Below, one piece after another: positions 8,010-36,930 of a stretch of DNA of 64,000 nucleotides. Source of the stretch: Apibacter raozihei (GTDB lineage Bacteria; Bacteroidota; Bacteroidia; Flavobacteriales; Weeksellaceae); assembly GCF_004014855.1 (NCBI RefSeq), contig NZ_CP034930.1, forward strand, positions 2,337,716 to 2,401,715. The letters run 5' to 3'. The notes beneath the pieces were generated by a model, which saw only the letters and a program-made list of their open reading frames with translations, was not told the DNA's origin and searched no databases. Both the position numbers and the translations under genes were made by a program. Position 1 is the first letter of the stretch. Every line of letters starts with the position of its first letter.

Positions 8010-9176
8010 ATGGGGAAATATAATTTTGATCAAATCATAAACAGAAAAAATTCAGATTCATTAAAATATGGCGTTTTAAAAGATAGATTTGGAAGAGATG
8101 ATTTGCTTCCTTTGTGGGTTGCTGATATGGATTTTTTATCTCCTCCGGAAATTACGCAAGCACTAGCCCAAAGAGTAGAAGAGGGGGTTTTTGGATACTC
8201 TTATGCTTCTTCCGACTACTATCAGTCTATAATTAACTGGCAGAAAAAGCAGCATCAGTGGGAGGTTAAAAAAGAAGAAATCAGTTACATTCCCGGTGTA
8301 GTTAAAGGAATTGCTTTTGTTTTAGAAGTTTTTTCAGAAAAAGATGATCAAATTATTATACAGCCTCCGGTTTATCACCCTTTCAGAATTATATCATCTT
8401 TACATGACAGAGAAGTCATTAATAATCCATTAATTTTTAATGGAGAACAGTATCAGATGGACATCGACGGACTTGAAAAATTAATTACACATAAAACAAA
8501 AATTTTAATTTTATCCAACCCTCATAATCCGGGAGGCAGAGTATGGAGTAAAGAAGAACTTACTAGATTAGCTGAAATTTGTTACAAACATAAAGTCCTT
8601 GTTATATCAGATGAAATACATTCAGATTTGGTTTTATATGGTAAAAAGCATATACCGTTTGCATCCGTATCCGAAGAAGCTGCCCAAAACAGCATTACAC
8701 TTAATGCTCCTTCAAAAACATTTAATATAGCAGGAATAGTGACATCCTATTCTATCATTAAAAATAAACAACTTAGGGAAAAGTATCATAAATATTTAAT
8801 AAGTAGTGAACTAAATGATGGGACTATATTTGCATATTTAGCTTTACAGGCAGCTTACGAAAAAGGTGAAGATTGGATGATAGAACTAAAGGCATATCTG
8901 GAAAAAAATATAAAATTTGTAGATGAATATTTAAAAAAGAATATTCCTCAGATAAAAGTAATAATTCCTGAAGCCTCATTTTTGCTTTGGTTGGATTGCC
9001 GCGATTTAAATTTAACTCAGGCTCAACTTACATCATTATTTATAAATGAAGCACATTTGGCACTTAATGATGGAGCTATGTTTGGTAAGGAGGGAAAAGG
9101 TTTTATGAGATTAAACATAGGATGCCCTCAATCGGTATTGGAAAAAGCTCTTCAACAATTGAAAGAATCTGTTTAA
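8010..9176 (+). CDS. patB: MalY/PatB-family cystathionine beta-lyase (PLP enzyme)
   Basis: The 388-residue protein has fold-type I aminotransferase landmarks: PLWVADMDF near the N-terminus, SNPHNPGG, SDEIHSDL, and the PLP-binding Lys in NAPSKTFNIAG. The combination is typical of MalY/PatB C-S lyases, which split cystathionine to homocysteine, pyruvate and ammonia, though an aminotransferase role is possible. A TATTTTTG promoter element lies at 7986-7993. The stop codon directly abuts the ATG of the acyl-carrier-like gene, so the two are almost certainly co-translated. Confidence 0.85.
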   Translation: MGKYNFDQIINRKNSDSLKYGVLKDRFGRDDLLPLWVADMDFLSPPEITQALAQRVEEGVFGYSYASSDYYQSIINWQKKQHQWEVKKEEISYIPGVVKGIAFVLEVFSEKDDQIIIQPPVYHPFRIISSLHDREVINNPLIFNGEQYQMDIDGLEKLITHKTKILILSNPHNPGGRVWSKEELTRLAEICYKHKVLVISDEIHSDLVLYGKKHIPFASVSEEAAQNSITLNAPSKTFNIAGIVTSYSIIKNKQLREKYHKYLISSELNDGTIFAYLALQAAYEKGEDWMIELKAYLEKNIKFVDEYLKKNIPQIKVIIPEASFLLWLDCRDLNLTQAQLTSLFINEAHLALNDGAMFGKEGKGFMRLNIGCPQSVLEKALQQLKESV

Positions 9177-9770
9177 ATGGGCTTGGATACAATTGAAATA
9201 ATTGTACAGATTGAAAATTGTTTTGATGTAGTGATTACAGATGAAGAGGCGGTACGTACTTATACTGTAGGAGATATTGCCGATTTAATATACATGAAAA
9301 AAAAGATACAGATTTATACTACAGATATTTTTCGTGAATTATATTTTAAATTGAAAGAACTTTTTGTGAATAATGGAGTAAATGAGAAAATTATTTGTGT
9401 TAATACAGAACTCACTGAACTTATTCCTCAAGGAGATTTAAAATTTTATGAAAAATTAATTAAAAAACAATTAGATTTACTTCCCCCTCCGATAAAACTA
9501 AAATATAATCTTCCTAGAGAAGAAGGTGCATATCAAGGGTTAATAATTAAAATTTTTAAAAGAAATAAACAATTACGCAGCTATACTTTAGCTCAATACA
9601 TACATTTTTTAATATCTGTAAACTATAAAAAATTACTGAATCCCAATCATCTGCATTCTCGTTACGAAGCAGAAAGAATCGTTTGTATGGTAGTTAGTGA
9701 TTGTACTGGAATTCCGGTAAGCAAAATTGAACTGCATTATAAGATTGTAGAAGATTTAGGAATCGAATAA
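9177..9770 (+). CDS. Acyl-carrier-like protein with half-motifs in swapped order
   Basis: The ATG follows the MalY stop with no gap. Residues 1-38 (starting MGLDTIEIIVQIE, then ITDEEAVRTYTVGDIADLI) resemble the second half of an acyl carrier protein from the DSL attachment site onward, but the serine is threonine. The last 35 residues (AERIVCMVVSDCTGIP, then KIVEDLG) resemble the first half of an acyl carrier protein and stop just where DSL would begin. Between them are about 115 residues of no recognised fold. It may be a circularly permuted or split carrier, or two degenerate domains. With Thr at the attachment site, phosphopantetheinylation is doubtful. It overlaps the end of the convergent ABC ATPase gene by 15 nt. 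Confidence 0.65.
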   Translation: MGLDTIEIIVQIENCFDVVITDEEAVRTYTVGDIADLIYMKKKIQIYTTDIFRELYFKLKELFVNNGVNEKIICVNTELTELIPQGDLKFYEKLIKKQLDLLPPPIKLKYNLPREEGAYQGLIIKIFKRNKQLRSYTLAQYIHFLISVNYKKLLNPNHLHSRYEAERIVCMVVSDCTGIPVSKIELHYKIVEDLGIE

Positions 9771-23165: not shown

Positions 23166-25292
23166 ATGAGTCAGATGGACAAAAACTCCTTCCAGGCTCC
23201 CCAGGCATCCGAATTGGCTAAAAAAGCAGCCGATGCCGGCGGAGTCACCGATAAGGTAAACCAGAAACTTACCGAAGCTACCGCTCCTTTATCCGAAGCC
23301 GCCCAACAAGCTCAATCCGCTGCTTCGGAAATACAGCAGGGACTTTCCACCCTTAGCCAGAAATATTCCGATATACCCGATAGTGAACTATTCAAACCCT
23401 TAAATAACTTTACGGTCACCCCTCCCGAGGTGCTGGAAAAAGAGCTCAGGGAAGAGGCTGGTAAATACTATGCCAAATACGGAGGAGACATAGCCTCCCA
23501 GCTGCAGAACTCCCATATCGTATATGCAACGATCCAGATAGGCGGGCAGGATGTACTGAAAGACAGCCATTTTACCCTGGATATCCACCAGCGCATGGCC
23601 GACCATGATGAATTTATGATCAGCTGCTATGCCGAAGCCTTCGGAGATAAGAATGCCTACCCGATGACTAATTCGCGAAACCTGCTGGGGAAAAAATGTA
23701 CCCTTCAATTCAAGCAGTTCGGACAGTCAGCCTATGTCTTTACCGGAATCATCACCGAAATATCCAATAAAAAAGTAGACGGTCATAACAAGCTTTTTAT
23801 TAAAGGTCATGCCCCCACCATCCTGCTGGAAAACGGACAGGACTGTGAGAGCTTTGAAGATAAAACACTGGATGCCATTATAAACAAAGCTACCAATGAG
23901 TACCCGCAGGATTTGGTAGCCTGGGACCTACGTCCTAACCTGAAAGATCCGTTAAAATATACCGTACAATACCGCGAGAGCGACTGGAACTTTGTCAAAA
24001 GATTAGCGGTACGCTATGGAGAATGGCTGTATTACAACGGACAAAAAATCGTTTTTGGAGGCAGTGGAGGAAAGACCGAAGAACTGGTGGAAGAACAGGA
24101 TGTATACAGCTATGAGCTGAGTATGCGACTGGTACCCCAGAAGTTTACCTATGTAGGTTACGATGCCAAGCAGGCAAAGAACCATACGGTAAACTCGGAC
24201 AGTGTGCCCATTACCCACCAGCTGGTGAATCCTTTCCAGCAGCATGCCATCAAAGCCTCTGAAGAGGTCTATTCCAAGGTGCCTTTGTCCCTGTATAACC
24301 AGTCCTTATTAGAAAAAGGAGAGCCGGAACTCAAAGAGGCGGTAAAAAGACAGAAGCTGAGCCGCCAGAATGTATTCTTTCTGGAAGCCAGGACCAATAA
24401 TCCGAACCTGAGACTGGGGGATATTGTGAAGATGAAAGCCTGGATGCCGGGGCATGAGATATTTAAAAACGGGGAAGTTCCGTTGGAATCGTATAAAGTC
24501 ATAGAAATCAGCCACCATCAGGACATTACCGAAGGATATTACAACCAGCTGATAGGCGTACCGATGGACAATGAAGTGCCGGCCTACATGGATGAAAATG
24601 CCATACCGGAGTGCGAAGAACAATCTGCCATAGTAACCGATAATTATAATACGGATAAAAATGCAGAAGGAATGAATCAGATTAGAGTTAAGTTTCCGTG
24701 GATGAGAGGAGCAAATGAAAAGAGTCCGTGGATACGGGTAATTACTCCCTATGCAGGAAAAGGAAAGGGGTTACATATGTTACCGGAAATTGGGGAAGAG
24801 GTAATTGTAAATTTTGAAAACGGAAATGCAGAGAAGCCTATCGTTATAGGAACTATATTTAACGGTTCTGACAATTCTAAATACGGAACTGAGGGTAATT
24901 TTATGAAAGGCTTGCGTACGGTAAAGGGAAACAAAATTTTATTTAATGATAAAGATGGTAGTACTAAATTGACAGATCAGGGATTTACATCAGTAGTTTT
25001 TGATGGTAAAGGGAATTCTACTATAAATACAGCTTCTACTCAGGTGATTAATGTGGGAGGAGGCGTAGGTGAGCAAGGCCCTGAACCCCCTGCCTCAAAT
25101 TTAAAAATGGACAAAAATGGAAATATTACTATTGATGGAAAAACAAATATTACATTGAAAGTTGGGGGAAATACAATTGTTATTACGGAAAATGGGATAA
25201 CAATGAATGGGGAATCATTTAATCTTACCAGTAAAAAAAATACGATTAAAGGCGAAGGTTCATGGGATGGAGGAAATGTATTTATCAACTAA
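23166..25292 (+). CDS. vgrG: Type VI secretion tip protein VgrG (TssI)
   Basis: The 708-residue protein has a helical Ala-rich N-terminal extension (about residues 10-85). A gp27-like domain follows (YRESDWNFVKRLAVRYGEWLYY), then the OB-fold (MRGANEKSPWIRVITPYAGKGKG, about residues 517-540) and a C-terminal Gly-rich beta-helix spike. VgrG trimers cap the Hcp tube and carry effectors. The first ~1.4 kb is clearly richer in G+C (31/60 at 23401-23460) than the 3' part (19/60 at 25201-25260). This suggests a mosaic: a conserved front joined to a local tail. It starts a five-gene operon. Confidence 0.92.
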   Translation: MSQMDKNSFQAPQASELAKKAADAGGVTDKVNQKLTEATAPLSEAAQQAQSAASEIQQGLSTLSQKYSDIPDSELFKPLNNFTVTPPEVLEKELREEAGKYYAKYGGDIASQLQNSHIVYATIQIGGQDVLKDSHFTLDIHQRMADHDEFMISCYAEAFGDKNAYPMTNSRNLLGKKCTLQFKQFGQSAYVFTGIITEISNKKVDGHNKLFIKGHAPTILLENGQDCESFEDKTLDAIINKATNEYPQDLVAWDLRPNLKDPLKYTVQYRESDWNFVKRLAVRYGEWLYYNGQKIVFGGSGGKTEELVEEQDVYSYELSMRLVPQKFTYVGYDAKQAKNHTVNSDSVPITHQLVNPFQQHAIKASEEVYSKVPLSLYNQSLLEKGEPELKEAVKRQKLSRQNVFFLEARTNNPNLRLGDIVKMKAWMPGHEIFKNGEVPLESYKVIEISHHQDITEGYYNQLIGVPMDNEVPAYMDENAIPECEEQSAIVTDNYNTDKNAEGMNQIRVKFPWMRGANEKSPWIRVITPYAGKGKGLHMLPEIGEEVIVNFENGNAEKPIVIGTIFNGSDNSKYGTEGNFMKGLRTVKGNKILFNDKDGSTKLTDQGFTSVVFDGKGNSTINTASTQVINVGGGVGEQGPEPPASNLKMDKNGNITIDGKTNITLKVGGNTIVITENGITMNGESFNLTSKKNTIKGEGSWDGGNVFIN

Positions 25293-25304
25293 TAAATATA
25301 AGTT

Positions 25305-26225
25305 ATGGCAAAAATGAATTTTTGGATTCCTGATAATGATCAAGAAAGGTCTAAAGAATATGTAGATAAACTACAGCAAGAGTATAAAAATGCTCCCTTA
25401 CTAAAAGAATATGCTTTTAAAGAAAAAAAACAAATAAAATATAAACTTGATATTCAAAGTAAAATGAATGTAGGAGGAATATCTAGTGAGAATACTGTGG
25501 AAATACGTTGGGTAATTACTTTGAAAAATATCACTGATGATTCTTATACTTTTGAACTTCTAATGCTGGACAATACCATGGTTCAGACTAATAATGATGG
25601 GTTCGGGGAAATACATAAACTGGTAACCCAAATGCAAAAAGCACTTAATGAAATCATTTTTAATACCAATCGGCAAGGTGTTGTAATTAAAGTGATAAAT
25701 ATAAATACTATTAAAGAAAAATGGCAGGCAGTAAAAGCTGAAATAATAGAATATAACCGAAATATGACTAGCATTCAAGAATTATTTGCTTTGCAGGAAC
25801 AAAATTTTGAGCAGGAAGGAGGCGTTGAAAAAATGGTTAGTGCTATTGAGTTTTTTGACATTTGTTTTAATCACATCTACGGGAAGAGATTGCCATTTTC
25901 CATAAATAAGAAAATACCGAATTTTTTCAGGACTTGGGATATTCCTTTTAATATACACTATGAGAATAATAAGTATAACGAGCAAATTAATCGGATAGAA
26001 TTTTATGGTAGTCATGCCGGTTATTCAGAGAATGATATGAAAAAAGCTTACGGAAATTTTCCATTCATAAAGACAGAGAAATTATACCCACAGTATATCT
26101 ATAAAGGAAACTATAACATGAATCTCAAAGATGGGTTTATTGAAAATGGAGAAATTCTATATAGGGAAAATGTAGACCCTAAATTGAATGCTGAGATAAT
26201 CTATAAAATAAGCCGTTATGAGTGA
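25305..26225 (+). CDS. Uncharacterised T6SS-linked protein, candidate effector adaptor
   Basis: The 306-residue product follows vgrG by 12 nt and overlaps the effector gene by 8 nt. It has no signal peptide or membrane segment. It is rich in charged and aromatic residues, with a mixed alpha/beta character and a possible helical stretch from about residue 100 to 190. I recognise no family. Genes in this position in other systems often encode adaptors or chaperones that load an effector on VgrG, so that is the leading guess. A structural spike component is an alternative. Confidence 0.6.
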   Translation: MAKMNFWIPDNDQERSKEYVDKLQQEYKNAPLLKEYAFKEKKQIKYKLDIQSKMNVGGISSENTVEIRWVITLKNITDDSYTFELLMLDNTMVQTNNDGFGEIHKLVTQMQKALNEIIFNTNRQGVVIKVININTIKEKWQAVKAEIIEYNRNMTSIQELFALQEQNFEQEGGVEKMVSAIEFFDICFNHIYGKRLPFSINKKIPNFFRTWDIPFNIHYENNKYNEQINRIEFYGSHAGYSENDMKKAYGNFPFIKTEKLYPQYIYKGNYNMNLKDGFIENGEILYRENVDPKLNAEIIYKISRYE

Positions 26226-27843
26226 TAATGAACAGCAACAAACAGAAGCGCCAAAGGAAGGTTTTATAGCTCTTCATAGTGATTATTATTTCACTTGCTC
26301 ATCGGGTTTAGCTCCGGCAAAAATATGTCCTACTCAAAATAATGCTTGCACCAAAGAGAAATATTCTTATTTAATCCATCATGATACCGCAACTCAAAAC
26401 ATAGGAGATTTTTTCTGTCGTTGGACAGTGGTATTGGCAGCTGCGGTAGCAGCTGCCGGAATAGTAACCGGAGGGGCAGCCCTGGTAGCCTTGGCTGCTG
26501 TTGCAGTAGTGGCAAGTGGTACTATGTGTGGAGGATTGATGGCTCCTATGCGTAAATGGGTAGGATATTCCCAATTAAACACTTATGGAGGTAAAACAAT
26601 TACATTATCCAACAAGCCTAAACACGATTTAGCTCTTGGAATAGGGGTATTATGTGGAGGACCTTTTATTGGATTAGTGATAGGTTCTAAAACGACCGGA
26701 ATACTAGACAGTGCTATTGATAAATTGTTTCCGCCTCAGGTAGTAGGCGGAGGACATTCTTTAACTTCAAAGTGCCAAATGGTATGTCCTATCGGAGGTA
26801 CAATTACCTATGCACCAGGAATTACAGGATTCTGGAGTGCAGCACTTTACACCGCCCGTAATACAGCCTGGGCTGTTTTAGAAGGTTTTTTTGTAGGAAA
26901 GTTTGTATCTTCGGGAGGAGCCTTATTTACTGGTGGTGGAAAAATATTAACAGGTCAATTTCTCAAAAATTTTGTATTTTTACAAGCCTCTGCTAGAGGA
27001 GCAGGAATTGCTGATCAGGTATTTTTTGAAGGAATGTTAAGAAATGGTAAAAGTATTTCCGAAACTGGAGACGAAGCTTATGCTGGATCTACTATGTTTG
27101 AGCAACCCTTTATAAATATTTGGAATAGATCTAATGAAGGCTATTATGATGGAAGTTATGCTAAAGATGCAGAAGGAAATTACCTACCAGAAGCTGATAA
27201 TGGTCATGGAACTGGGGCTCTTTTAACTGATGCTTACTATGCGGGGTTATCTTTAATGGGGTTAAAAGCTATGGTAGATGCTTCCCGTCAGAATGTAAAC
27301 ATCCCTAAAGAAACCGTTGAAGCTATTCGAAAAACCGTAAATGATGCTATTGCTAAAGGTAAAAGCTTCTTGTTTGAGAGGGGAAGAAGAGGACAAAGTC
27401 AAAGGGTTGCTACTAATTGGAGAGATCATCAAAATAATGTAACTCAAGAATTGAGAGAGAACAATCCTAATACGTCTGTACATGAACAGGTATATTTGGA
27501 CGTACAAGGAACAGATGTACATGGAAATCCTTTTTCAAAGAGGATTATAGCGGATCAAATGTATGATACTGGTAATGGTTCTTATCAAATAATAGATTCT
27601 AAGTTCAGTTCTGTAAATGATTTAACGACAGTAACAAGTACAGATTTAAGAAATACTTTTACAAACAACCAAAAACCTGTATATGATGCAATTGGCGGAA
27701 ATGGAAGTATAACTTCAGTATCTATAGCAGATGTTCCATCATCTCATAATATGGGTCTTACCCCTGGACAAATAAGTGTTAGTGGACCTGTTCAAATTGC
27801 GGTTAATACTCCAAATGGAATAATATATAGAACATATCCTTAA
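26218..27843 (+). CDS. PAAR-like/transmembrane T6SS effector with PD-(D/E)XK-like nuclease C-terminus
   Basis: The 541-residue protein shows three parts. Residues ~1-280 hold a Cys-rich PAAR-like (DUF4280-type) fold, split by hydrophobic stretches (residues ~69-105, 140-165 and 205-245) that could form a membrane-crossing region. Residues ~280-410 form a linker. The C-terminus has an endonuclease-like pattern: Asp446, then Asp460-Ser461-Lys462 within YQIIDSKFS, then Gln485 in TNNQK. That pattern matches restriction-endonuclease-fold DNase toxins. PAAR domains sharpen the VgrG spike. The toxin assignment rests on motifs only. The gene overlaps its upstream neighbour and is followed by two small candidate immunity genes. 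Confidence 0.75.
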   Translation: MSDNEQQQTEAPKEGFIALHSDYYFTCSSGLAPAKICPTQNNACTKEKYSYLIHHDTATQNIGDFFCRWTVVLAAAVAAAGIVTGGAALVALAAVAVVASGTMCGGLMAPMRKWVGYSQLNTYGGKTITLSNKPKHDLALGIGVLCGGPFIGLVIGSKTTGILDSAIDKLFPPQVVGGGHSLTSKCQMVCPIGGTITYAPGITGFWSAALYTARNTAWAVLEGFFVGKFVSSGGALFTGGGKILTGQFLKNFVFLQASARGAGIADQVFFEGMLRNGKSISETGDEAYAGSTMFEQPFINIWNRSNEGYYDGSYAKDAEGNYLPEADNGHGTGALLTDAYYAGLSLMGLKAMVDASRQNVNIPKETVEAIRKTVNDAIAKGKSFLFERGRRGQSQRVATNWRDHQNNVTQELRENNPNTSVHEQVYLDVQGTDVHGNPFSKRIIADQMYDTGNGSYQIIDSKFSSVNDLTTVTSTDLRNTFTNNQKPVYDAIGGNGSITSVSIADVPSSHNMGLTPGQISVSGPVQIAVNTPNGIIYRTYP

Positions 27844-27857
27844 AAAAGAAAAGAATA

Positions 27858-28499
27858 ATGAATAAGAACGACGTAATAAATTTAATTGGAGAAAAAATAT
27901 TACCAATTATTAAAAATGATGGATTTAAATTTAGAAAAGCGCAATATCAATTCTCAAAAAAGGGAACAGACAATTTTATTTTTAGAATAAATTTTGTTTG
28001 TCTAGATTTTTCACCACAATATAAAATCCCTTTTTATATTGCTATTAGAAATGAAAAAGTGGAAGATATTAAAAATAAATTTTTAGAATTAAGTCCAAAG
28101 TCTCAACAAGAAACATCAACATTAACATTACCAATTTCTTTTTTTACAGAGAAAAATTATATTGCAAATCCTATTGAGTTTTGGGTAGAAGAGGAAAATG
28201 ATATAGATAAGATAACTAATTTTTTTCAACCCTTTTATAAAAAATACATAATTGATTTTTTTAATCAATACTCATCTCTAAAAAAGATTTCTGATTTCAT
28301 GAAAGATTCTATTGATAAAAATGAGATTTTTGGAGATAAATTCTACTTTTATTTTACTAGTGCAATTCTATTAAAATTATCCGATGATTCTGAATATCTG
28401 AATAGGGTAGAAAAATACAGAGAATTAATAAACGATTATCCTGTTTTCAATAGGGAAAAATATGAAAGATTACTAGATTATCTGAAAAGTTATGAGTAA
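27858..28499 (+). CDS. Candidate immunity protein for the PAAR-like effector
   Basis: The 213-residue cytoplasmic protein starts 14 nt after the effector stop. The first ~130 residues (FRKAQYQFSKKGTDNFIFRI, then PFYIAIRNE) have an alternating beta pattern that recalls DUF4304-like proteins. The C-terminal part is helical. A small, AT-rich gene directly after a toxin gene is the standard immunity position. No cognate pair is known to me, so the role is inferred. Confidence 0.6.
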   Translation: MNKNDVINLIGEKILPIIKNDGFKFRKAQYQFSKKGTDNFIFRINFVCLDFSPQYKIPFYIAIRNEKVEDIKNKFLELSPKSQQETSTLTLPISFFTEKNYIANPIEFWVEEENDIDKITNFFQPFYKKYIIDFFNQYSSLKKISDFMKDSIDKNEIFGDKFYFYFTSAILLKLSDDSEYLNRVEKYRELINDYPVFNREKYERLLDYLKSYE

Positions 28500-28767
28500 T
28501 ATAAAACAAGAAATAGACATAATCTCTTTTGATGAATATAATCACCTTATTTTGAGAATATTCTATAATAATATATCTTATTTAATATTCGATGAATTTC
28601 CTCCAGCAGAAACGGATAAATTATCTAATAATCAAATAAATAATCTGAGTGGAATTTTATCTGATTTAACTGGTGTAGATGTAATTCATGACGATAGAGA
28701 GTTATTTATAATTATGAGTAATGATAAAATAATACTGGAAAAAGTAATAGCTTTTTTAGAAATGTAA
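28492..28767 (+). CDS. Small acidic protein, second immunity candidate
   Basis: The 91-residue acidic protein (many Asp/Glu, for example FDEFPPAETDK and DVIHDDRELF) overlaps the previous gene by 8 nt. Acidic immunity proteins often mimic DNA or bind nuclease active sites, which would fit a DNase effector. It may instead belong to the displaced cassette that follows. No family is recognised. Confidence 0.55.
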   Translation: MSNIKQEIDIISFDEYNHLILRIFYNNISYLIFDEFPPAETDKLSNNQINNLSGILSDLTGVDVIHDDRELFIIMSNDKIILEKVIAFLEM

Positions 28768-29258
28768 ATTCTTTAAAATCTTATTAATGCTAGATACCAG
28801 TCGATAAAATCTCACTTTTAGAGAACTTATCCGAAGCATAATAAATACATATAATTATCTGTACAAACATTATTAAAAAGAAAGCGATTATTAACATCTT
28901 ACATGAAAAAAATACAAGATTCCCCCTACCAGAACCTATCTTTAGAGGATATAGAAGGCGAGATCAATCTCAAGGAGGTACATATTATGTAGAAGATAGA
29001 GTTAATAGAGCTGCGAGGGGTGATGATGGATATACAGATGGAAGAAGTACAGCACAAGCTTTAGATGCTCAAGTAGCTATTACAGAAGCTAAAGCTAATG
29101 GGCAAGACGTTTGGTTCCGCTACGACCCGCTGGGCAGACGTACTGCAAAAAAGTTTAAAAGTACCACTACCCGCTGGGTATGGGACGGAAATAAACCCCT
29201 GCACGAATGGAAAGAATTTGAAGCCCGGGAAGCTACTCCCGAAGAGCTAACCACCTGG
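28768..29258 (+). pseudogene. Junction region: gene remnants leading into the first Rhs fragment
   Basis: No intact gene is present. An ATG at 28903 opens a 29-codon frame (MKKIQDSPYQNLSLEDIEGE) ending at 28992. It resembles the N-terminus of NUMOD4/HNH-type proteins as I remember them, but this is weak. A second frame is open without ATG from 28845 into the Rhs gene; its part before 29106 (DDGYTDGRSTAQALDAQ) is not Rhs-like. True Rhs core sequence (FRYDPLGRRTAKK) starts at about 29106 and is richer in G+C than the flanks. It looks like a recombination joint. Confidence 0.5.
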
Positions 29259-30014
29259 GTGTTTGACGAAGACAGCTTTGTACCCGTAGCCAAGTTGCGC
29301 GGAAACAAAAAATATTCTATCTTAGCGGATCATCTGGGGACTCCTTCTCAAATGTATAAAGAGAATGGTGAACTCTTTTGGGAAGCATCTTTGGATAGCT
29401 TCGGAAGATTGAAACTTAACAAAGGAGAAAGCGGAAGCTGTCCCTTTAGATATCAGGGGCAGTATGAAGATGTAGAAACGGGCTTATATTACAATCGTTT
29501 CCGTTATTATTCCCCGGAAGAAGGCTTGTATATTAGCCAAGACCCCATTGGATTACAAGGCGGAATAGAGTTTTATTCGTATGTGCATGACCCGAATGGG
29601 TGGATTGATCCGTTAGGTTTGACTCAAAAGACTTATGGTGAAAAAAGAGATGTTGATAAAATAGCAGAAAAATATGGTGGTAAAAAAATAGATGAAAATA
29701 GATATGAATTTGATGGTCCAGATGCTAAAAAAAGAGCACGACAAGCTGCTTCTGAAATTTCAGGAGATTTAGGAAGTGATCCAAATACTATTAGACGAAA
29801 AGATTATGTTGATGCAAATAATACTTATAAAAACAATAATTCAAATAGAGTAATAGGAAAACATTCGTCTACATTAAACTCTAATGAACAACCGGTTAGT
29901 GGTTATCATGATCATGAAATAGGTCATTCACGTTTTAATGCTCCAAAGCACTACAATGCTTGGAGTGAAAGCACAGGAACTAATTATACAGATAATGTAC
30001 ATTTATATTATTAA
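29259..30014 (+). CDS. Truncated Rhs core with intact C-terminal toxin (cassette 1)
   Basis: The frame carries the end of the Rhs core ([35 protein letters not shown]) and the hyperconserved DPLGL boundary at about residue 117. A unique C-terminal domain of about 130 residues follows. This domain is basic and ends with a His-rich segment (YHDHEIGHSRFNAPKHYN). It has the size and position of a toxin, but I do not recognise the fold. Core homology continues upstream to 29106 without a start codon, so the ATG at 29259 may be internal and the gene is a 5'-truncated or displaced rhs tip. Its immunity gene follows 7 nt later. Confidence 0.65.
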   Translation: MFDEDSFVPVAKLRGNKKYSILADHLGTPSQMYKENGELFWEASLDSFGRLKLNKGESGSCPFRYQGQYEDVETGLYYNRFRYYSPEEGLYISQDPIGLQGGIEFYSYVHDPNGWIDPLGLTQKTYGEKRDVDKIAEKYGGKKIDENRYEFDGPDAKKRARQAASEISGDLGSDPNTIRRKDYVDANNTYKNNNSNRVIGKHSSTLNSNEQPVSGYHDHEIGHSRFNAPKHYNAWSESTGTNYTDNVHLYY

Positions 30015-30021
30015 TTAAAAA

Positions 30022-30429
30022 ATGAAAAAAGAATGGAGAGAATATCACTCCGAAGAAGGAGAGATATGGAAAATATTATCAGAGGCAGAAGTAAAAGAAA
30101 AGAGTCAAGACTTAGTATCTAAATCGGGAAAGCCTGCTGTGTTAAGAAAGGTTATGAAAACTACTGATTATATAGTAACATGCACTATTCCAGCAGCAAG
30201 GATAATAGATGATGTGAAAAATAAAATTGGAATGGAAACTTATTTTCATTTAAAAATAAGTTTAATTAATGATGATAATTGGTATGGGATAAGTAATCGA
30301 CATTTTAAGAAAGAAGAAATATTAGAACTTGTAAATCTTTTCACAGGAACAACTAAACTACAAGCTGAAAGAATTTGGAAATCAAAAAAATTAGGAATGC
30401 TAAATACTAATAGACTTGAAAGGGAGTAA
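30022..30429 (+). CDS. Candidate immunity protein for cassette 1
   Basis: The 135-residue soluble protein begins 7 nt after the toxin stop and ends before a terminator. It contains YIVTCTIPAARIIDDVKNKI and a charged helical C-terminus. No family is known to me. The immunity role is inferred from its position after an Rhs C-terminal toxin. Confidence 0.6.
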   Translation: MKKEWREYHSEEGEIWKILSEAEVKEKSQDLVSKSGKPAVLRKVMKTTDYIVTCTIPAARIIDDVKNKIGMETYFHLKISLINDDNWYGISNRHFKKEEILELVNLFTGTTKLQAERIWKSKKLGMLNTNRLERE

Positions 30430-30516
30430 ATATTAATTAGATTTTATTTTTTCATTTTTATCTTTAAAAGTATCTCAAAAGACATTTTAAAATTAAATTT
30501 CTGAAAAATTAAAACA

Positions 30517-30545
30517 AAAAGCCAACTCATTTGAGTTGGCTTTTC
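30517..30545 (+). terminator. Cassette 1 terminator
   Basis: GCCAACTCA and TGAGTTGGC (30521-30540) flanked by A and T runs make a bidirectional terminator. The same stem ends cassettes at 32961 and 35011. A short motif ATTAAATTTCTGAARAATTA lies just before it here (30492) and at 32931. Confidence 0.8.
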
Positions 30546-30550
30546 TATTT

Positions 30551-30649
30551 TTAAGTATTCAATTTATTTAATAACTCTAATTCATCCTCAGGAATAAGGG
30601 AGCGAAGGAGTTGCAGGATGCTGTAAAGATCCCATTGGTTGTGTTCCGT
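30551..30649 (-). pseudogene. Antisense C-terminal relic of an unknown gene family, copy 1
   Basis: Read on the minus strand, 32 codons end in a stop directly behind the terminator. They contain ILQLLRSLIPEDELELL. An in-frame stop at 30650-30652 cuts the 5' side. Three more copies (32989, 33804, 35038) encode nearly the same peptide with mainly synonymous changes, so it was once a translated gene. The family is unknown. Confidence 0.55.
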
Positions 30650-30722
30650 TTAATAAGATAAAATTTTATATCTTTGAATAGACTAAAAATTAATTTTTAT
30701 TAAGTGGATTGAATAAGATGTT

Positions 30723-31392
30723 GATGATTTGGGTACTCCGGTTCAGGGGTATTCTGATGACGGATCTTTACTTTGAGGGCGGAGCGTTAAAAAAACGTTG
30801 AGAACGTTTTTAGCGAACGAGCCAGTCTGTCGCGCTGGATTTCGATAGCTATGGACGTATAAAAATGTCTAAAGGAGAGGAAGGTTTTTGTCCTTTTGCT
30901 TACCAAGGTCAAATAATTGATAAGGAAACTGGCTTATATTATAATCGTTTCCGTTACTATTCCCCTGAAGAAGGCTTATATATTAGTCAGGATCCGATTG
31001 GTCTTGAAGGTGGGATAAAGTTTTATTCGTATGTGCATGACCCCAATGATTGGATTGACCCATTAGGACTAGCTAAAATTAAAGATGAATATTCTTCAAT
31101 GGACGAGTATTGGAAGGCTAAACATACTCCAACACAAGTTACACCAGGAATTACAGAAATAATATAACAAAAACCTAGTTCTAGATCAAATGAAGTTTAT
31201 ACAAAAGTAAGCCATTATGATGAATATGGAAGAATGGTAGGGCAAACACATTATACTTCACATGGTGAACCTGATATTCATCCAAATCCACATCATCATA
31301 AATATGATCCTAAAACAGGAGCAGCTATAAGAAATCCAGAAGATGGAACAAAAATATTTCCTGGAGAATTTAATGCCTCAACATGTGATTAA
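30723..31392 (+). pseudogene. Broken Rhs core and toxin (cassette 2)
   Basis: The Rhs frame begins at DDLGTPVQGYSDDGS and stops at once in a ~60-bp hairpin insert. It resumes after the insert (ATG 30865, [15 protein letters not shown]) and passes [16 protein letters not shown] and DPLGL. It then meets TAA at 31165-31167, 67 residues past SQD. In the same frame the toxin continues to 31392 with HGEPDIHPNPHHHKYDP and GTKIFPGEF, a His-rich nuclease-like pattern. The toxin is therefore interrupted by one nonsense codon, while its immunity gene is open. A suppressor or a sequencing error at 31165 would restore it. Confidence 0.75.
30772..30835 (+). repeat. Hairpin insert in the Rhs core, copy A
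   Basis: This ~60-bp segment replaces the few codons expected between YSDDGSL and LDFDSYG of the Rhs core. It holds AAAAACGTT-GAG-AACGTTTTT (30791-30811), which looks like a small terminator. Nearly identical copies lie at 31890 and 34028, at the same place in the core. Confidence 0.75.
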
Positions 31393-31403
31393 TACAGAAA
31401 ATT

Positions 31404-31790
31404 ATGGAAAATAAAATTATTTCAGAAATAAAACAATATATTAAGAATTTTAATATAAGATTATTGACAGATGTATTACAGTTGATAATAAATAACATAG
31501 ACAACAGAACTATGTTTGTTGAATTCAGGTATATAGAATATAAAAATTCGAAAAAACAATACAATATTGGTATATTATTTAGAAATTTAAAATTTAATCA
31601 AAATATAGATTTAGGTCTTAATAATTTACTAAATATTAATAAATTAAATTTTGAAAATATTACTCAAAATTGCTGGGAAGAGATAAATTGGTCTGTTACT
31701 GACTCTGATGATGATGGTGTAATATTATTTGCTTTTTATTGTGAAGATATTTGTATTGAATACGTTAAGGAGAATGTAAATAGTATTTAA
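31404..31790 (+). CDS. Candidate immunity protein for the broken cassette 2 toxin
   Basis: The 128-residue protein begins 11 nt after the end of the toxin frame. It is AT-rich, acidic towards the C-terminus (SVTDSDDDGVILFAFYCEDI) and has no signal peptide. No family is recognised. Its intact frame next to a toxin with a nonsense codon suggests it is kept to protect against siblings that still carry the toxin. Confidence 0.6.
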   Translation: MENKIISEIKQYIKNFNIRLLTDVLQLIINNIDNRTMFVEFRYIEYKNSKKQYNIGILFRNLKFNQNIDLGLNNLLNINKLNFENITQNCWEEINWSVTDSDDDGVILFAFYCEDICIEYVKENVNSI

Positions 31791-31819
31791 TACTAAGAAT
31801 AAATTTTTATTACCAAGTT

Positions 31820-32562
31820 GATAAGGAAAATATCTTAGCAGATCATCTGGGTACTCCGTTTCAGGGATATTCCGATGACAGTTTTTTACTTTGAGGGTGG
31901 AGCGTTAAAAAAACGTTGAGAACGTTTTTAGCGAACGAGCCAGACTGTCGCGTTGGATTTTAGATAGTTTCGGAAGACTGAAACTTAACAAAGGAGAAAG
32001 CGGAAGCTGCCCTTTTAGATATTAGTGGCAGTATGAAGATGTTGAAACCGGCTTATATTACAATCGTTTCCGTTACTATTCCCCGGAAGAAGGCTTATAT
32101 ATTAGCCAAGACCCCATTGGACTCGCTGGAGGTGATAGATTTTATGGATATGTTAATGATCCTAATAGTTTTATAGATCCTTATGGTTTAAATTCAGCAT
32201 CAAATCTTCCAAAATTAAAAGGGAGTAGTGTTAGTAAGGTTGAAAAAACTTTACAAAATGCAGGATTTACTCAAACTAGAGTTACAAGTACAGGTAATCA
32301 AACATGGAATCATTCTGATGGTTCTGAAGTTAGAATACATCCATACGGTAATCAATCAACAACTAATAGAAGTGGAGATTTAACTCCAAAATCAGGTTTA
32401 AATGCCCACATACATAAACAAGATACTATGGGGAATCAACTTAATGATCATGGAACTATTAGTACAGATCCAAATGAAACTCATAAAGGAATTAAAAATC
32501 CTGATGACTATCCAAATGTTAGAAATAGACCTCATGGTTGTGGTGCAAGTACTTCTTCTTAA
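31820..32562 (+). pseudogene. Broken Rhs core with complete toxin domain but no start (cassette 3)
   Basis: The Rhs core starts at ILADHLGTPFQGYSDD, is stopped in the hairpin insert, and has a TAG at 32023-32025 where other copies read CAG. After it the frame is open through SQDPIGLAGG and FIDPYGL into a 120-residue toxin-like domain (SDGSEVRIHPYGN, LNAHIHKQDTMGN, NVRNRPHGCG). There is no start codon upstream of that domain, so the toxin cannot be made unless it recombines onto an intact rhs gene. It resembles polymorphic toxins with conserved His and Gly, but I cannot name the family. Confidence 0.75.
31890..31953 (+). repeat. Hairpin insert in the Rhs core, copy B
   Basis: It is nearly identical to the copies at 30772 and 34028, including the AAAAACGTT-GAG-AACGTTTTT hairpin and the flank GCGAACGAGCCAGACTGTCG. 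It lies between YSDDSFL and LDSFGRLKL of the Rhs core. Confidence 0.75.
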
Positions 32563-32579
32563 AATATAAAATTAAATAT

Positions 32580-32885
32580 ATGGCTTTTGAATATAATATT
32601 TTTTTTGATTTAAATGAAAACGAGAAAAAACAGATATTAAAAGATATTTTAATACTTATACAATCTCATTTTTTTGAAAATAATGTTGAGTATAAAAATT
32701 TATCTATAATAATAGAAAACAATGATGTTCAATCTAATTGGAAAGAACTTGCATCGATAGAAATTTCTAAAGAAGGTTTTTTCATTGTTATGAGTTTAAA
32801 TAGAGATGACAGAAATTTTATTTTAGAACAAATAGAATTAATTTTAAGTACAAAACATATTGAGTATGAAATTGATGAAGTATGA
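32580..32885 (+). CDS. Candidate immunity protein for cassette 3
   Basis: The start is placed at ATG 32580 (MAFEYNIFFDLNENEK); an in-frame ATG at 32538 lies inside the toxin frame. The 101-residue acidic protein has no signal peptide or known family. It follows the toxin frame by 17 nt and is followed by the cassette terminator. The immunity role is inferred. Confidence 0.6.
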   Translation: MAFEYNIFFDLNENEKKQILKDILILIQSHFFENNVEYKNLSIIIENNDVQSNWKELASIEISKEGFFIVMSLNRDDRNFILEQIELILSTKHIEYEIDEV

Positions 32886-32957
32886 TAATTATTGAAATAC
32901 AATTATTTAAAAACTTTGATGTATAAGAATATTAAATTTCTGAAGAATTAATAAATA

Positions 32958-32986
32958 ACAGCCAACTCAAAGAGTTGGCTTTTTTG
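32958..32986 (+). terminator. Cassette 3 terminator
   Basis: GCCAACTC and GAGTTGGC with an AAA loop are followed by six T. The sequence is close to the cassette 1 and cassette 5 terminators. Confidence 0.8.
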
Positions 32987-32988
32987 TT

Positions 32989-33096
32989 TCAACTATTCAA
33001 TATATCCAACAATTCCAATTCATCCTTAGGAATAAGCGAACGAATAAGTTGCAGGATGTTGTACAAATCCCATTGGTTGTGTTCCGTATAATTAGG
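32989..33096 (-). pseudogene. Antisense C-terminal relic, copy 2
   Basis: The minus-strand frame encodes PNYTEHNQWDLYNILQLIRS and then LIPKDELELL before a TGA beside the terminator. Compared with copy 1 most differences are at third codon positions. The 5' part of the ancestral gene is missing, replaced by a toxin tail. Confidence 0.55.
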
Positions 33097-33249
33097 AAAC
33101 GAAATTTCTGGTAATAAAGCCCGTCAAGTTATTGCTAGAGATGCTTTAAAGTCAAGAAGAGTATATTCAGAAATTCTTAATTTTACTTTACAAAAATTGA
33201 TTAAGATGAATAAAGAAATATATCTTGAAGCGCTCAAAAAAATACAATA
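33097..33249 (+). pseudogene. Orphan C-terminal tail of an unknown toxin (cassette 4)
   Basis: A frame without start codon encodes GNEISGNKARQVIARDALKS followed by a helical, basic end, with stop TAA at 33247-33249. No Rhs core precedes it. It is directly followed by a gene resembling immunity proteins, so it is best read as the last 50 residues of a toxin whose front was lost. Confidence 0.55.
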
Positions 33250-33257
33250 ATAAAATA

Positions 33258-33722
33258 ATGGAATCAATAATTGATAGGTATTATAATCTTTCGGTTCAAG
33301 GTAGTAAGGAAGATTGGTTTAGTGGTGAAATAAGTATTAAATGGTATGAGTATATATTTGAGTTATCATTGAAATTAAGAATTACATATTTAGTTACTAT
33401 TCTTCATAATCAAGTTTTCAATGGAGGTTTTGATCAATACTTTATTAATGGTTATGGACAATTTTCTTTATTAACAATAAGAGCTCTTTTAGATATTGAA
33501 GCATATGAAAAAGCTTTTATTGTACAAAAGGCATATGATTCTGTCAATGAAGATAAATTAGATGATCAATTTTTTCGTAATAAGTTATTAAAAAAGCAAA
33601 TAAAAGGTTTATTTGATGATGATAAACTTATAGATGAATTAGATCTTCTCAGTGATGAATACTATGAGACAGAAAATAAAGTAAAAATATTGGATTTATT
33701 AACTAAATATTTAAAGAAATAA
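33258..33722 (+). CDS. DMP19/DUF4375-like protein, candidate immunity protein
   Basis: The start is placed at ATG 33258 (MESIIDRYYNL); a TTG at 33225 lies inside the toxin tail. The 154-residue protein has the DMP19/DUF4375 hallmark HNQVFNGGFDQYFINGYGQF followed by an IRALLDIEAYEKA helix. DMP19 of Neisseria is a DNA mimic, and DUF4375 proteins occur beside polymorphic toxins. Here the position behind a toxin tail supports immunity. Confidence 0.7.
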   Translation: MESIIDRYYNLSVQGSKEDWFSGEISIKWYEYIFELSLKLRITYLVTILHNQVFNGGFDQYFINGYGQFSLLTIRALLDIEAYEKAFIVQKAYDSVNEDKLDDQFFRNKLLKKQIKGLFDDDKLIDELDLLSDEYYETENKVKILDLLTKYLKK

Positions 33723-33776
33723 TAAAACATTTTTAAAATTAGTCTTTAACAAAAATTCAATAAAAATTAAAAAAAA

Positions 33777-33801
33777 GGCCGATAATTATCGGTTTATTTT
33801 T
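33777..33801 (+). terminator. Cassette 4 terminator
   Basis: CCGATAATTATCGG (33779-33792) is a perfect palindrome between an A run and TTTATTTTT. Its sequence differs from the other cassette terminators although its place is the same. Confidence 0.65.
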
Positions 33802-33803
33802 GA

Positions 33804-33905
33804 TTATTCTATATTAAGTAAATAGAGTAATTCCAATTCATCCTTAGGAATAAGGGAGCGGAGGAGTTGCAGGATGTTGTAAAGATCCCATTGGTTCTGT
33901 TCCGT
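33804..33905 (-). pseudogene. Antisense C-terminal relic, copy 3
   Basis: The minus-strand frame encodes TEQNQWDLYNILQLLRSLIP and then KDELELL before TAA at 33804-33806, with an in-frame stop just upstream (33906-33908). It is the third copy of the same peptide behind a cassette terminator. Confidence 0.55.
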
Positions 33906-33975
33906 TTAATAAGATAAAATTTTATATCTTTGAATAGACTAAAAATTGATTTTTATTAAGTGGATTGGATAAGAT

Positions 33976-34288
33976 GCTGATGATCTGGGTACTCCGGTTC
34001 AGGGATATTCCGATGACAGTTTTTTATTTTGAGGGTGGAGAGTTAAAAAAACGTTGAGAACGTTTTTAGCGAACGAGCCAGTCTGTCGCGCTGGATTTTC
34101 GATAGCTATGGACCTATAAAAATGTCTAAAGGAGAGGAAGGTTTTTGTCCTTTTGCTTATCAGGGTCAAATAATTGATAAAGAAACCGGCTTATATTATT
34201 ATCGTTTCCGTTATTATTCTCCCGAAGAAGGCTTGTATATTAGCAGGATCCGATTGGATTACAAGGCGGAATAGAGTTTTATTCGTAT
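33976..34288 (+). pseudogene. Broken Rhs core (cassette 5), frameshifted
   Basis: The core reads ADDLGTPVQGYSDDSF, stops in the hairpin insert, and resumes at [16 protein letters not shown]. It then loses one base in the ISQDP codons near 34244 (AGCAGG for AGYCAGG), shifting the frame. The block from about 33890 to 34310 is nearly the same as 30640-31060, including a leader with a TATCTTTG element, so the two cassettes share a duplicated front. Confidence 0.75.
34028..34090 (+). repeat. Hairpin insert in the Rhs core, copy C
   Basis: This is the third copy of the insert with the AAAAACGTT-GAG-AACGTTTTT hairpin. It differs from copies A and B at only a few positions and occupies the same codon position in the core. 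Confidence 0.75.
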
Positions 34289-34702
34289 GTGCATGACCCG
34301 AATAAATTTATTGATCCTTTTGGGCTAGAAAGCAAAAAGTATTCTGTAAGTAATGAAAGGAAAAAACATATTTTAGATGGAGATAATTCTAGTGATCCAA
34401 TGGATGGTCATGGTCCAAATAGAGGAAAACAGCAAGGTGCTTTTCCTGATACTTGGACAGATGATCAAGCAATAGCAGCAATAGAAAAAGTTGCGAATAG
34501 TCCTAAATCACGATGGGAACAAACTACTGGACCAGGAGTAGGAACATTTACAACTGGAGGTCCAAATCCAAATGCACAAGGAGAGACAAACACAGGTAGG
34601 CCAGTATCCTATAAAGTTACAGGGCAAGACCATGGGAAAAATATAGAGGTCATAGTGAGACCAAGTGGAGAAGGTATTATTACTGGATATGTTAAAAGTT
34701 AA
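34289..34702 (+). CDS. EndoU-like RNase toxin, displaced Rhs C-terminus
   Basis: The frame restarts at the ATG of MHDPNKFIDPFGL, the Rhs cleavage motif, so it is nearly a bare toxin of 137 residues. It has bacterial EndoU features: KHILDGDNSSD, a GHGPN segment, FPDTWTDDQAIAAIEKVA, and the C-terminal EVIVRPSGEGIITGYV. EndoU toxins cleave RNA with conserved His and Ser/Thr residues. The upstream core is frameshifted, so translation would depend on this internal ATG. The gene 3 nt downstream resembles MafI immunity proteins, which are known partners of EndoU toxins. Confidence 0.75.
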   Translation: MHDPNKFIDPFGLESKKYSVSNERKKHILDGDNSSDPMDGHGPNRGKQQGAFPDTWTDDQAIAAIEKVANSPKSRWEQTTGPGVGTFTTGGPNPNAQGETNTGRPVSYKVTGQDHGKNIEVIVRPSGEGIITGYVKS

Positions 34703-34705
34703 AAT

Positions 34706-34993
34706 ATGAATAATATAGATAAAGACAATATAGATAAATTTATTTCTTCATTAGAAAAGCAAGTTTTTACAGAAAATGTAGATAAAATTAATTATTTAAA
34801 TTATATAATAAATAATGCTAAAGAATTAATATTTGTTGGAGAATATAAAATAGCAATTGAAAATTTAATTGAAAATCTTATAGAAGAGAATATAATTTTT
34901 AATAAAGTTATATTAAATAATTTGTTGAAAATTAATGATAAAGATATTCAAGAGCTATTAAAAATTTTAGTAGATAATAATTTAAATACTTAA
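34706..34993 (+). CDS. MafI-like immunity protein
   Basis: The 95-residue all-helical, acidic protein contains VGEYKIAIENLIENLIEENI, which matches the MafI-type pattern (GEY.iAlE.L.e.L.E). MafI proteins protect Neisseria from MafB toxins, including EndoU types. It lies 3 nt after the EndoU-like gene and ends before a terminator. Family membership is by eye. Confidence 0.65.
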   Translation: MNNIDKDNIDKFISSLEKQVFTENVDKINYLNYIINNAKELIFVGEYKIAIENLIENLIEENIIFNKVILNNLLKINDKDIQELLKILVDNNLNT

Positions 34994-35037: not shown

Positions 35038-35118
35038 TTAACTATTTAGCTTGTCTAAGAGTTCCAATTCATCCTCAGGAATAAGTGAACGAAGGAGTTG
35101 GAGGATATTGTAAATATT
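35038..35118 (-). pseudogene. Antisense C-terminal relic, copy 4
   Basis: The minus-strand frame encodes IYNILQLLRSLIPEDELELL and then DKLNS before TAA. A deletion removes the EHNQWD part seen in copies 1-3. It closes the Rhs cassette array. Confidence 0.5.
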
Positions 35119-35230
35119 CCGTTTAATTCGAGAAAGAAATTTTTATCAGTAAAGCTATTAGGGGTATTTTGTAAAGAAATGAAAGGATAAAATTAAATAA
35201 TACTTTTGAGTCTACAGTTGGTTTATAAGC

Positions 35231-36600
35231 AAAAAGAAAAAAAGAAAGGTGTTAGCTTTCTTTTTTTCTCAGATATATCTAGCCTATATCTGAAATAGTT
35301 TCTAATTAGGTCTTAATAAAGTTTTAATGTTGAGTACAAAATAAAGACATTTAAATAAACATAAAAAAAGGAAATCCGTAAAATACTAGATAATATAGGA
35401 TAAAAACAAAGATTATCTCATTTTTTATCTTGTATTTTGGGTTATATAGTAATAGATCATCAGCAGAGACTGATCAGAAAGAAATCACAAATAGAATTGA
35501 ATGTGTTTGACAAGTGTATTTTTATTATTTATAAGGAATGTTATAATAGAAATTTAGATAAGGAAATACAAGGATTCAAAAACTTAAGTTACAAAATTGA
35601 AAGTAGCTATGATTTTTTAATTGGTTTAGTAGCAAAAAGAAAAAAAGAAAGGTGTTTGCTTTCTTTTTTTCTTAGATACATTTTTGGGTATATCTAAATA
35701 GCCTCTAATTAGGTCTTAATAAAGTTTTAATGTTGAGTACAAAATAAAGACATTTTAATGAGCATAAAAAAAGGAAATCCGTAAAATACTAAATAAAATA
35801 AGATAAAAACAAGGATTATCTCATTTTTTATCTTGTATTTTGGGTGATATAGTAATAGATCATCAGTAAAGACTGATCAGAAAAAAATCACAAAAAGAAT
35901 TGAATGTGCTTGACAATTGTATTTTTATTATTTATAAGGAATGTTATAATAGAAATTTAGATAAGAAGATACAAGGATTCAAAAACTTAAATTAACAAAA
36001 TTAAAAGTAGCTATGATTTTTTAATTGGTATAGTAGCTAAAAGAAAAAAAGAAAGGTGTTAGCTTTCTTTTTTTCTTAGATACATTTTTGGGTATATCTA
36101 AATAGCCTCTAATTAGGTCTTAATAAAGTTTTAATGTTGAGTGCAAAATAAAGACATTTAAATAAACATAAAAAAAGGAAATCCGTAAAATACTAAATAA
36201 AATAAGATAAAAATAATGATTATCTCATTTTTTATCTTGTATTTTGGGTAATATAATAGTAGATCATCAGTAGAGACTGATTAGAAAGAAATCACAAATA
36301 GAATTGAATGTGCTTGACAAGTGTATTTTTATTATTTATAAGGAATGTTTTAATGGAATTTAGATAAGGAGATACAAGGATTCAAAAACTTAAATTCACA
36401 AAATTGAAAGTAGCTATGGTTTTTTAATTGGTAAAGTAGCTAAAAGAAAAAAAGAAAGGTGTTAGCTTTCTTTTTTTCTTAGATACATTTTTGGGTATAT
36501 CTAAAATAGCTTCTAATTAGGTCTTAATAAAGTTTTAATGTTGAGTGCAAAATAAAGACATTTTAATGAGCATAAAAAAAGGAAATCCGTAAATATAAAA
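35231..36600. repeat. 403-bp noncoding tandem repeat, three full and one partial copy
   Basis: Units begin at about 35231, 35634, 36038 and 36441; the last is cut at about 36600. The period, measured at a GGTGTT mark, is 403, 404 and 403. Each unit starts with a long hairpin (AGAAAAAAAGAAAG paired with CTTTCTTTTTTTCT) and a second stem. In the second stem unit 1 has a C-G pair (35270/35292) where units 2-4 have T-A. An inverted GATCA/TGATC element recurs in the middle. No frame is conserved across units: an 86-codon frame in unit 1 (35437-35697) is stopped in unit 2. It could be an RNA array, a recombination substrate or remnants of an element. Confidence 0.75.
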
Positions 36601-36930
36601 TATAATAAGATAAAAAGTATGAAAATATAAGTTTTTACATTTTGGCTAAAGAATAATAGTCTTAAATTTACAGAAATAAAAAATGGGAGGATATCCACAA
36701 TGTCAAAATTTTAAATGTAATCATTTATATAAAATTGAATTATTGTATAAAGGATCTATATTTTTCCTTACAAACTCAAAAAAGTTATACTATTGTTTAA
36801 TTTCCGTATAATTATGAAATCAAATTAATAACACTGCATATTAGAAAATTTTAAAAAAATTTTCTGTTTATCATTACGCTCAGAATATAATCAATTAGAT
36901 AAATTTAATTTTTATGATATCTTTAAAACT
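36601..36930. other. Gene-free stretch
   Basis: I see no conserved frame or RNA here. It is AT-rich and contains a short inverted repeat near 36850 (AAAATTTT-type). It probably holds the promoter of the lipoprotein gene at 36931. Confidence 0.5.

Follow-up and report, generated by a model that had tools for sequence, protein, structure and literature searches.

Four tandem copies of a predicted minus-strand small RNA gene in Apibacter raozihei, probably activated by a two-component system widespread in the family

Introduction

The described systems closest to the locus reported here are the GacS/GacA-RsmX/Y/Z cascade, which includes tandem rsmX copies (PMC7911923), the Qrr sRNAs of Vibrio under LuxO (PMC4211561), the tandem sibling sRNAs OmrA/B, PrrF1/2, AbcR1/2 and the csRNAs (reviewed in PMC4211561) and, among flavobacteria, Rfp18 and other sRNAs of Flavobacterium psychrophilum (PMC9723704). 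Little of the regulatory RNA of Bacteroidota has been charted, and a regulator is known for only a few of their sRNAs. Here we analyse a tandem repeat in a stretch of 64,000 nt of the A. raozihei genome (the window), for which tandem structured RNAs or a recombination substrate had been proposed. We propose that the array probably consists of four tandem copies of an sRNA gene of about 103 nt, lying on the minus strand and activated by a widespread two-component system.

Results

A noncoding tandem array next to an Rhs locus

TRF detects a single array with a period of 403, 3.4 copies, 93% matches and a score of 2379, which far exceeds that of every other repeat in the window. The distances between successive copies are 403, 404 and 403 bp and unit 4 is incomplete, ending at about 36616, so the original prediction of three full units and a partial one with a period of 403-404 bp is borne out. 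Units 2 and 3 are 93.5% identical and unit 1 is 86% identical to each of them. In the alignment, variants within one short stretch alternate, pairing units 1/3 and 2/4, whereas other sites pair 1/2 versus 3/4; the alternation indicates exchange between units by past unequal crossing-over or gene conversion, which would explain the origin of the array, not its function.

The longest open stretch, 75 codons in a single frame, occurs in unit 1 only, and in units 2 and 3 the corresponding frames contain 11-12 stops. The units thus share no reading frame, as had been claimed, and a decayed protein gene was rejected as the origin of the array on this ground. Rfam covariance models gave no match to the array at the gathering score and nothing credible at a relaxed threshold, and blastn of phage and plasmid collections returned no similar sequence. 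Run across the genus, a covariance model of the array had significant matches only in its own genome, and no homologue of the array sRNA was found by sequence in other species of the genus. Among blastn matches in related genomes, five of the six loci inspected were chance A+T-rich matches. The pattern TTTACGGWTTTCCTTTTTTTAT matched three GTDB contigs, the sole one inspected (L047) being an unrelated terminator, and had no match in viral contigs.

The array borders an Rhs locus, again as described before. The polymorphic toxin/immunity locus that adjoins it, at window positions 23166-34993, includes an EndoU-type tip and a DMP19-like gene along with a VgrG-like gene and Rhs fragments. A 62-nt repeat, 85% identical, lies at 33831-33892 and 35062-35123, and its minus strand resembles the end of a small protein gene (...YNILQLLRSLIPEDELELLDKLNS*) left behind between Rhs-tip/immunity cassettes.

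Each copy has the layout of an sRNA gene on the minus strand

On the minus strand all four copies read TTACGGATTTCC, exactly 25 nt, the -7 box TTATTTTG, a leader, a hairpin and an intrinsic terminator (Table 1). The leader is invariant over 35 nt, most of its length, in all four units (columns 12-46 of the alignment that begins at the -7 box). The start of the sRNA was set 5 nt past the -7 box and its end at the T run; both ends are inferred. The right half-site of the array box is degenerate and the -7 box lacks the consensus A at its second position. By sequence, these near-identical neighbouring copies, each with a promoter and a terminator of its own, have the organisation of tandem sibling sRNA genes.

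Table 1. Window coordinates of the predicted features of the array
Feature	Position	Strand	Remarks
Whole tandem array	35228..36616	none	period 403-404 bp; 4 predicted sRNA gene copies and 3 spacers
Predicted sRNA gene, copy 1	35230..35332	-	fold and promoter layout; predicted ends
Predicted sRNA gene, copy 2	35633..35735	-	fold and promoter layout; predicted ends
Predicted sRNA gene, copy 3	36037..36139	-	fold and promoter layout; predicted ends
Predicted sRNA gene, copy 4	36440..36543	-	fold and promoter layout; predicted ends
Candidate activator box, copy 1	35366..35381	-	TTACGGATTTCCTTTT; left half-site perfect, right half degenerate
Candidate activator box, copy 2	35769..35784	-
Candidate activator box, copy 3	36173..36188	-
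Candidate activator box, copy 4	36577..36592	-
-7 box, copy 1	35337..35344	-	TTATTTTG; exactly 25 nt past TTACGGATTTCC
-7 box, copy 2	35740..35747	-
-7 box, copy 3	36144..36151	-
-7 box, copy 4	36548..36555	-
Leader motif, copy 1	35302..35315	-	TAAGACCTAATTAG; in invariant leader; resembles motif of other predicted sRNA leaders
Leader motif, copies 2-4	35705-35718, 36109-36122, 36513-36526	-	TAAGACCTAATTAG; identical
Hairpin 2, copy 1	35270..35292	-	outer C-G to U-A; U-A to U-G pairs only in minus-strand RNA
Terminator hairpin, copy 1	35234..35270	-	15 pairs
Terminator hairpin, copy 2	35637..35673	-
Terminator hairpin, copy 3	36041..36077	-
Terminator hairpin, copy 4	36444..36480	-
Stretch of predicted minus-strand array sRNA			CATTAAAACTTTATTAAGACCTAATTAG

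The strand is indicated by folding and by a distant homologue. Compared with shuffled sequences, minus-strand array RNAs fold with z of -3.8 to -5.0, whereas plus-strand RNAs (z -1.05, -1.2 and -2.0) hardly fold better than the shuffles. A search of the same genome found a distant homologue of one unit at 266450 (E 6e-7), which, aligned to the array, keeps four blocks and has lost the rest. In the order of the array minus strand the blocks are TTTTACGGWTTTCCTTTTTTTAT, TTATTTTGYA, AAAACTTTATT and the terminator, an order that is that of the predicted promoter, leader (of which a part is kept) and terminator on this strand.

The original prediction had pointed instead to a TTGACA...TATAAG pair, and TTGACA-17-TATAAG is indeed retained on the plus strand of units 1-3, although it is absent in unit 4. 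Transcription of the plus strand from this pair to the shared terminator, alone or convergent with the minus-strand RNA, would be helped by the T runs on both sides of the terminator hairpin, which, as seen in copy 1, can work in both directions. However, the pair is not the promoter type of the phylum (PMC9723704), sigma-70-like pairs are no commoner in the sequence than chance (18 found versus 29 expected from shuffles), and it is the minus-strand promoter blocks that the homologue at 266450 keeps, so that with the poor folding of the plus-strand RNAs we regard this reading as very improbable.

A compensatory change in hairpin 2 had also been brought forward. The change is real, the outer pair (35270/35292) being C-G in unit 1 and T-A in units 2-4, and a second varying pair of this hairpin stays paired in the minus-strand RNA (U-A in unit 1, U-G in units 2-4), whereas the plus strand would have an A-C mismatch there. 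Yet the compensatory change is one event among four paralogues and is equalled by 109 of 500 shuffles; it is therefore no evidence of structure by itself.

The promoter layout recurs elsewhere in the genome

TTTACGGWTTTCC occurs without mismatch at eight sites of the genome; the array contains four of them, and the others lie at 266452, 730147, 1631294 and 1851318. All eight have, exactly 25 nt on, a TAnnTTTG element that departs from this sequence at one position at most (TTATTTTG, TACATTAG, TACCTTTG and TATATTTA), compared with none of the 10 boxes that carry one mismatch. In flavobacteria the main sigma factor has TAnnTTTG as its -7 box, located at -12 to -5 (PMC9723704). At the five distinct loci, i.e., the array and the four others, noncoding sequence follows and leads to an intrinsic terminator some 60-250 nt on. 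A further site at 3238031 (TTAAGGAAATCCTCAA) overlaps the end of a gene, has no clear terminator and was left out of the count.

Tandem structured RNAs are thus supported, since a promoter layout typical of the phylum is common to the array and to other sRNA-like loci; the support comes for the strand opposite to the one first envisaged and owes nothing to the TTGACA/TATAAG pair or the compensatory change. The same recurrence bears on the proposal that the array serves as a noncoding recombination substrate, or is a decayed intergenic remnant, at the edge of the Rhs cassette array, and that any transcript is unimportant. It is true that an Rhs tip/immunity locus ends at the array and that unit variants have been shuffled between copies, but the four units and the homologue at 266450 have preserved box, spacing, leader and terminator while the sequence between them diverges, and the same layout is found at loci without Rhs genes. 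We consider this reading very improbable; a role in recombination is not needed, the exchange between units speaking to how the array arose.

The box is half of a palindrome widespread in the family

Within the genus the full site is the palindrome TTACGGAWWTCCGTAA, and the consensus for the family is TTACGG-N4-CCGTAA, 21 nt before TAnnTTTG. Palindrome and -7 box at this fixed spacing gave 152 matches in 62 of 120 family genomes (sums from a per-genome table), compared with 4 matches for a reversed-pattern control in the same 120 genomes. When the -7 box was not required, seven perfect copies of TTACGG-N4-CCGTAA were found, and TAnnTTTG (at most one mismatch) follows at exactly 21 nt in five of them and at 20 nt in one. 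The pattern TTACGG-N4-CCGTAA-N21-TAnnTTTG can therefore be used to find the putative regulon in about half of the sampled family genomes. If the -7 box occupies -12 to -5, the centre of the palindrome would by arithmetic fall at about -41.5 (about 41-42 bp upstream of the start), and a centre near -41.5 is the usual position of class II activators, which contact RNA polymerase. In the literature we found no report of this palindrome or of the regulator-sRNA pair proposed below.

A putative NarL-type regulator is encoded next to the site

A response-regulator gene (1631342-1631998, 219 aa) ends 37 nt upstream of the site at 1631294, whose box is perfect and spans 1631290-1631305. This gene is itself directly preceded by a gene for a 612-aa TPR histidine kinase, and the order kinase, regulator, site is repeated in other species of the genus and in one other genus. 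The profile of the regulator matches RcsB (over 4-191, E 6e-9) and VraR (E 4e-7), and weakly GacA/UvrY; the Pfam receiver domain scores below the cut-off in this protein and above it in a relative, and the LuxR-type part is not called. The kinase matches UhpB and LiaS and, weakly, FimS of Porphyromonas. NarL-type regulators read 7-2-7 palindromes, and the protein is most likely NarL/RcsB-like, i.e., of this type.

In 40 genomes, which represent about a dozen genera, a site follows the orthologous regulator gene within 400 nt, mostly at a distance of 20-90 nt. Regulator and site also occur together: among the 120 family genomes 59 have both, 9 the regulator only, 3 the site only and 49 neither (p 1e-20, uncorrected for phylogeny), and counted by genus the numbers are 11, 1, 2 and 19 (p 4e-6). 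As in Gac/Rsm, a NarL-family regulator is linked to a palindromic upstream site, here by sequence. This adjacency and co-occurrence make a strong, though indirect, case that the NarL-type regulator at 1631342-1631998 reads the palindrome.

The sRNA genes could be real and their activator nevertheless another protein. A second, weaker regulator match (a paralogue) lies at 3021678, two regulator paralogues occur in several family genomes, and the genome encodes two Crp/Fnr-family proteins, to a dimer of which a 16-bp palindrome near -41.5 would also be suited. Set against this, it is directly downstream of orthologues of the regulator at 1631342-1631998 that the box lies in the 40 genomes, and it is the presence of this regulator that the box tracks; we therefore think it unlikely that the paralogue or a Crp/Fnr-family protein is the activator. 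A Riemerella two-component system described in the literature is a different one, of the OmpR/PhoR type.

The region upstream of the kinase and regulator genes, at about 1.634 Mb, encodes a putative lipoprotein that contains tandem PTSGETGHVAAENAN repeats (L097, 10028-10591, minus strand), and a lipoprotein-like gene is present at the kinase/regulator locus of two other species (L154, 209-598; L155, 6431-6829).

Units downstream of the site and the leader motif

Within the genus the units downstream of the site are mostly noncoding. One long unit type adjoins the regulator gene and carries TCAAACATAA and TTGTACAAA in several species, whereas the short types, of which there are several, measure about 90-105 nt. 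In three species one of these sits between a long unassigned region upstream and an aconitase-like gene downstream, and in one of the three a DUF4280/PAAR-like gene is nearby (identities by eye). Many of the sites in other genera lie ahead of genes for small proteins. In another genus (L118 and L119, about 1500-1655) the unit after the regulator gene seems noncoding and is alike in two species, and one further family site precedes a small protein that is YegP-like by eye (L120). At about 264.6-266.9 kb of the genome (L027 8660-10900), 2.3 kb between an HTH regulator gene and a DUF6896 gene are nearly free of ORFs and contain several terminator hairpins; two sub-copies there (8666-8849 and 9430-9608) both carry GCAYGCTTTTTGGCAT and AAACTTATTGARGAAAGCTGTCTAA and are perhaps a further sRNA pair, without the TTACGG box.

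A Gibbs search of 14 leaders returned the motif ACAACTRATTAR, of which the array version is AAGACCTAATTAG, with an LLR of 113.4 compared with 99.7 +/- 3.0 and a maximum of 105.9 in 16 shuffles; a leader motif common to the sRNAs is suggestive only. Pairing of the leader with the starts of genes in the window, several of them arbitrary, was not significant (best z -2.6 among 46). The CsrA family PF02599 has no match in the genome, while the control search matches E. coli, and the array RNA contains no GGA motif. It is possible, though we hold it only tentatively, that the family-wide two-component system runs a set of mostly unrelated sRNAs that have in common a short exposed motif (ACAACURAUUAR) and that work without CsrA, by titrating an RNA-binding protein or by base-pairing to a shared set of mRNAs, one member having been amplified in this species to four tandem copies beside the Rhs/VgrG toxin locus.

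Discussion

Based on these data we propose that each array copy carries its own promoter, composed of the activator box TTACGGATTTCC, 25 nt and the -7 box TTATTTTG, and its own terminator, and that the activator would be the NarL-type response regulator at 1631342-1631998, partner of the adjacent TPR kinase, acting from where an activator that touches RNA polymerase usually binds. Activity of the kinase would lead to joint transcription of the four copies and of at least four further loci that carry this box. The four copies would raise the dose, as do sibling rsmX or Qrr genes, and the exposed leader, which contains AAGACCUAAUUAG and is invariant across the copies, may pair with mRNAs, or the sRNAs may titrate an RNA-binding protein. 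The layout of promoter, leader and terminator, its fixed spacing and recurrence and the linkage between box and regulator are read from the sequence, and from them we infer transcription, binding, activation and mode of action. The two-component system and its sites are apparently undescribed, and the analysis yields a predicted regulator with its DNA site and promoter spacing and, in a single genome, eight candidate sRNA genes.

Rfp18 and the other F. psychrophilum sRNAs resemble the array in being independent flavobacterial sRNAs with TAnnTTTG-type promoters, in the same class; a term search of the main text of that report (PMC9723704) found no palindrome, Crp/Fnr or similar upstream site. 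The tandem sibling sRNAs of other bacteria are likewise adjacent, near-identical genes, each with its own promoter and terminator, whereas here four copies form a regular 403-bp array, in Bacteroidota and with a different regulator. The likeness to LuxO-Qrr is that a response regulator activates four to five sibling sRNAs with a conserved core, the copies providing dose or redundancy. Qrr genes, however, are dispersed and have sigma-54 promoters and an NtrC-type regulator. The array has instead TAnnTTTG at a fixed distance and a linked regulator that is NarL-like; as both promoter and regulator types differ, the system is not a Qrr system. GacS/GacA-Rsm is similar in its NarL-family regulator, its palindromic upstream activating sequence and its several sRNAs of about 110 nt, some of them in tandem. 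Unlike Gac/Rsm, the present system has a palindrome of the form TTACGG-N4-CCGTAA and a TPR kinase of another type, and since both a CsrA gene and GGA motifs in the RNA are absent it is not Gac/Rsm itself. On the tentative reading of a set of sRNAs with a common leader motif, the system would be the equivalent in Bacteroidota of the Gac/Rsm cascade, independent of CsrA.
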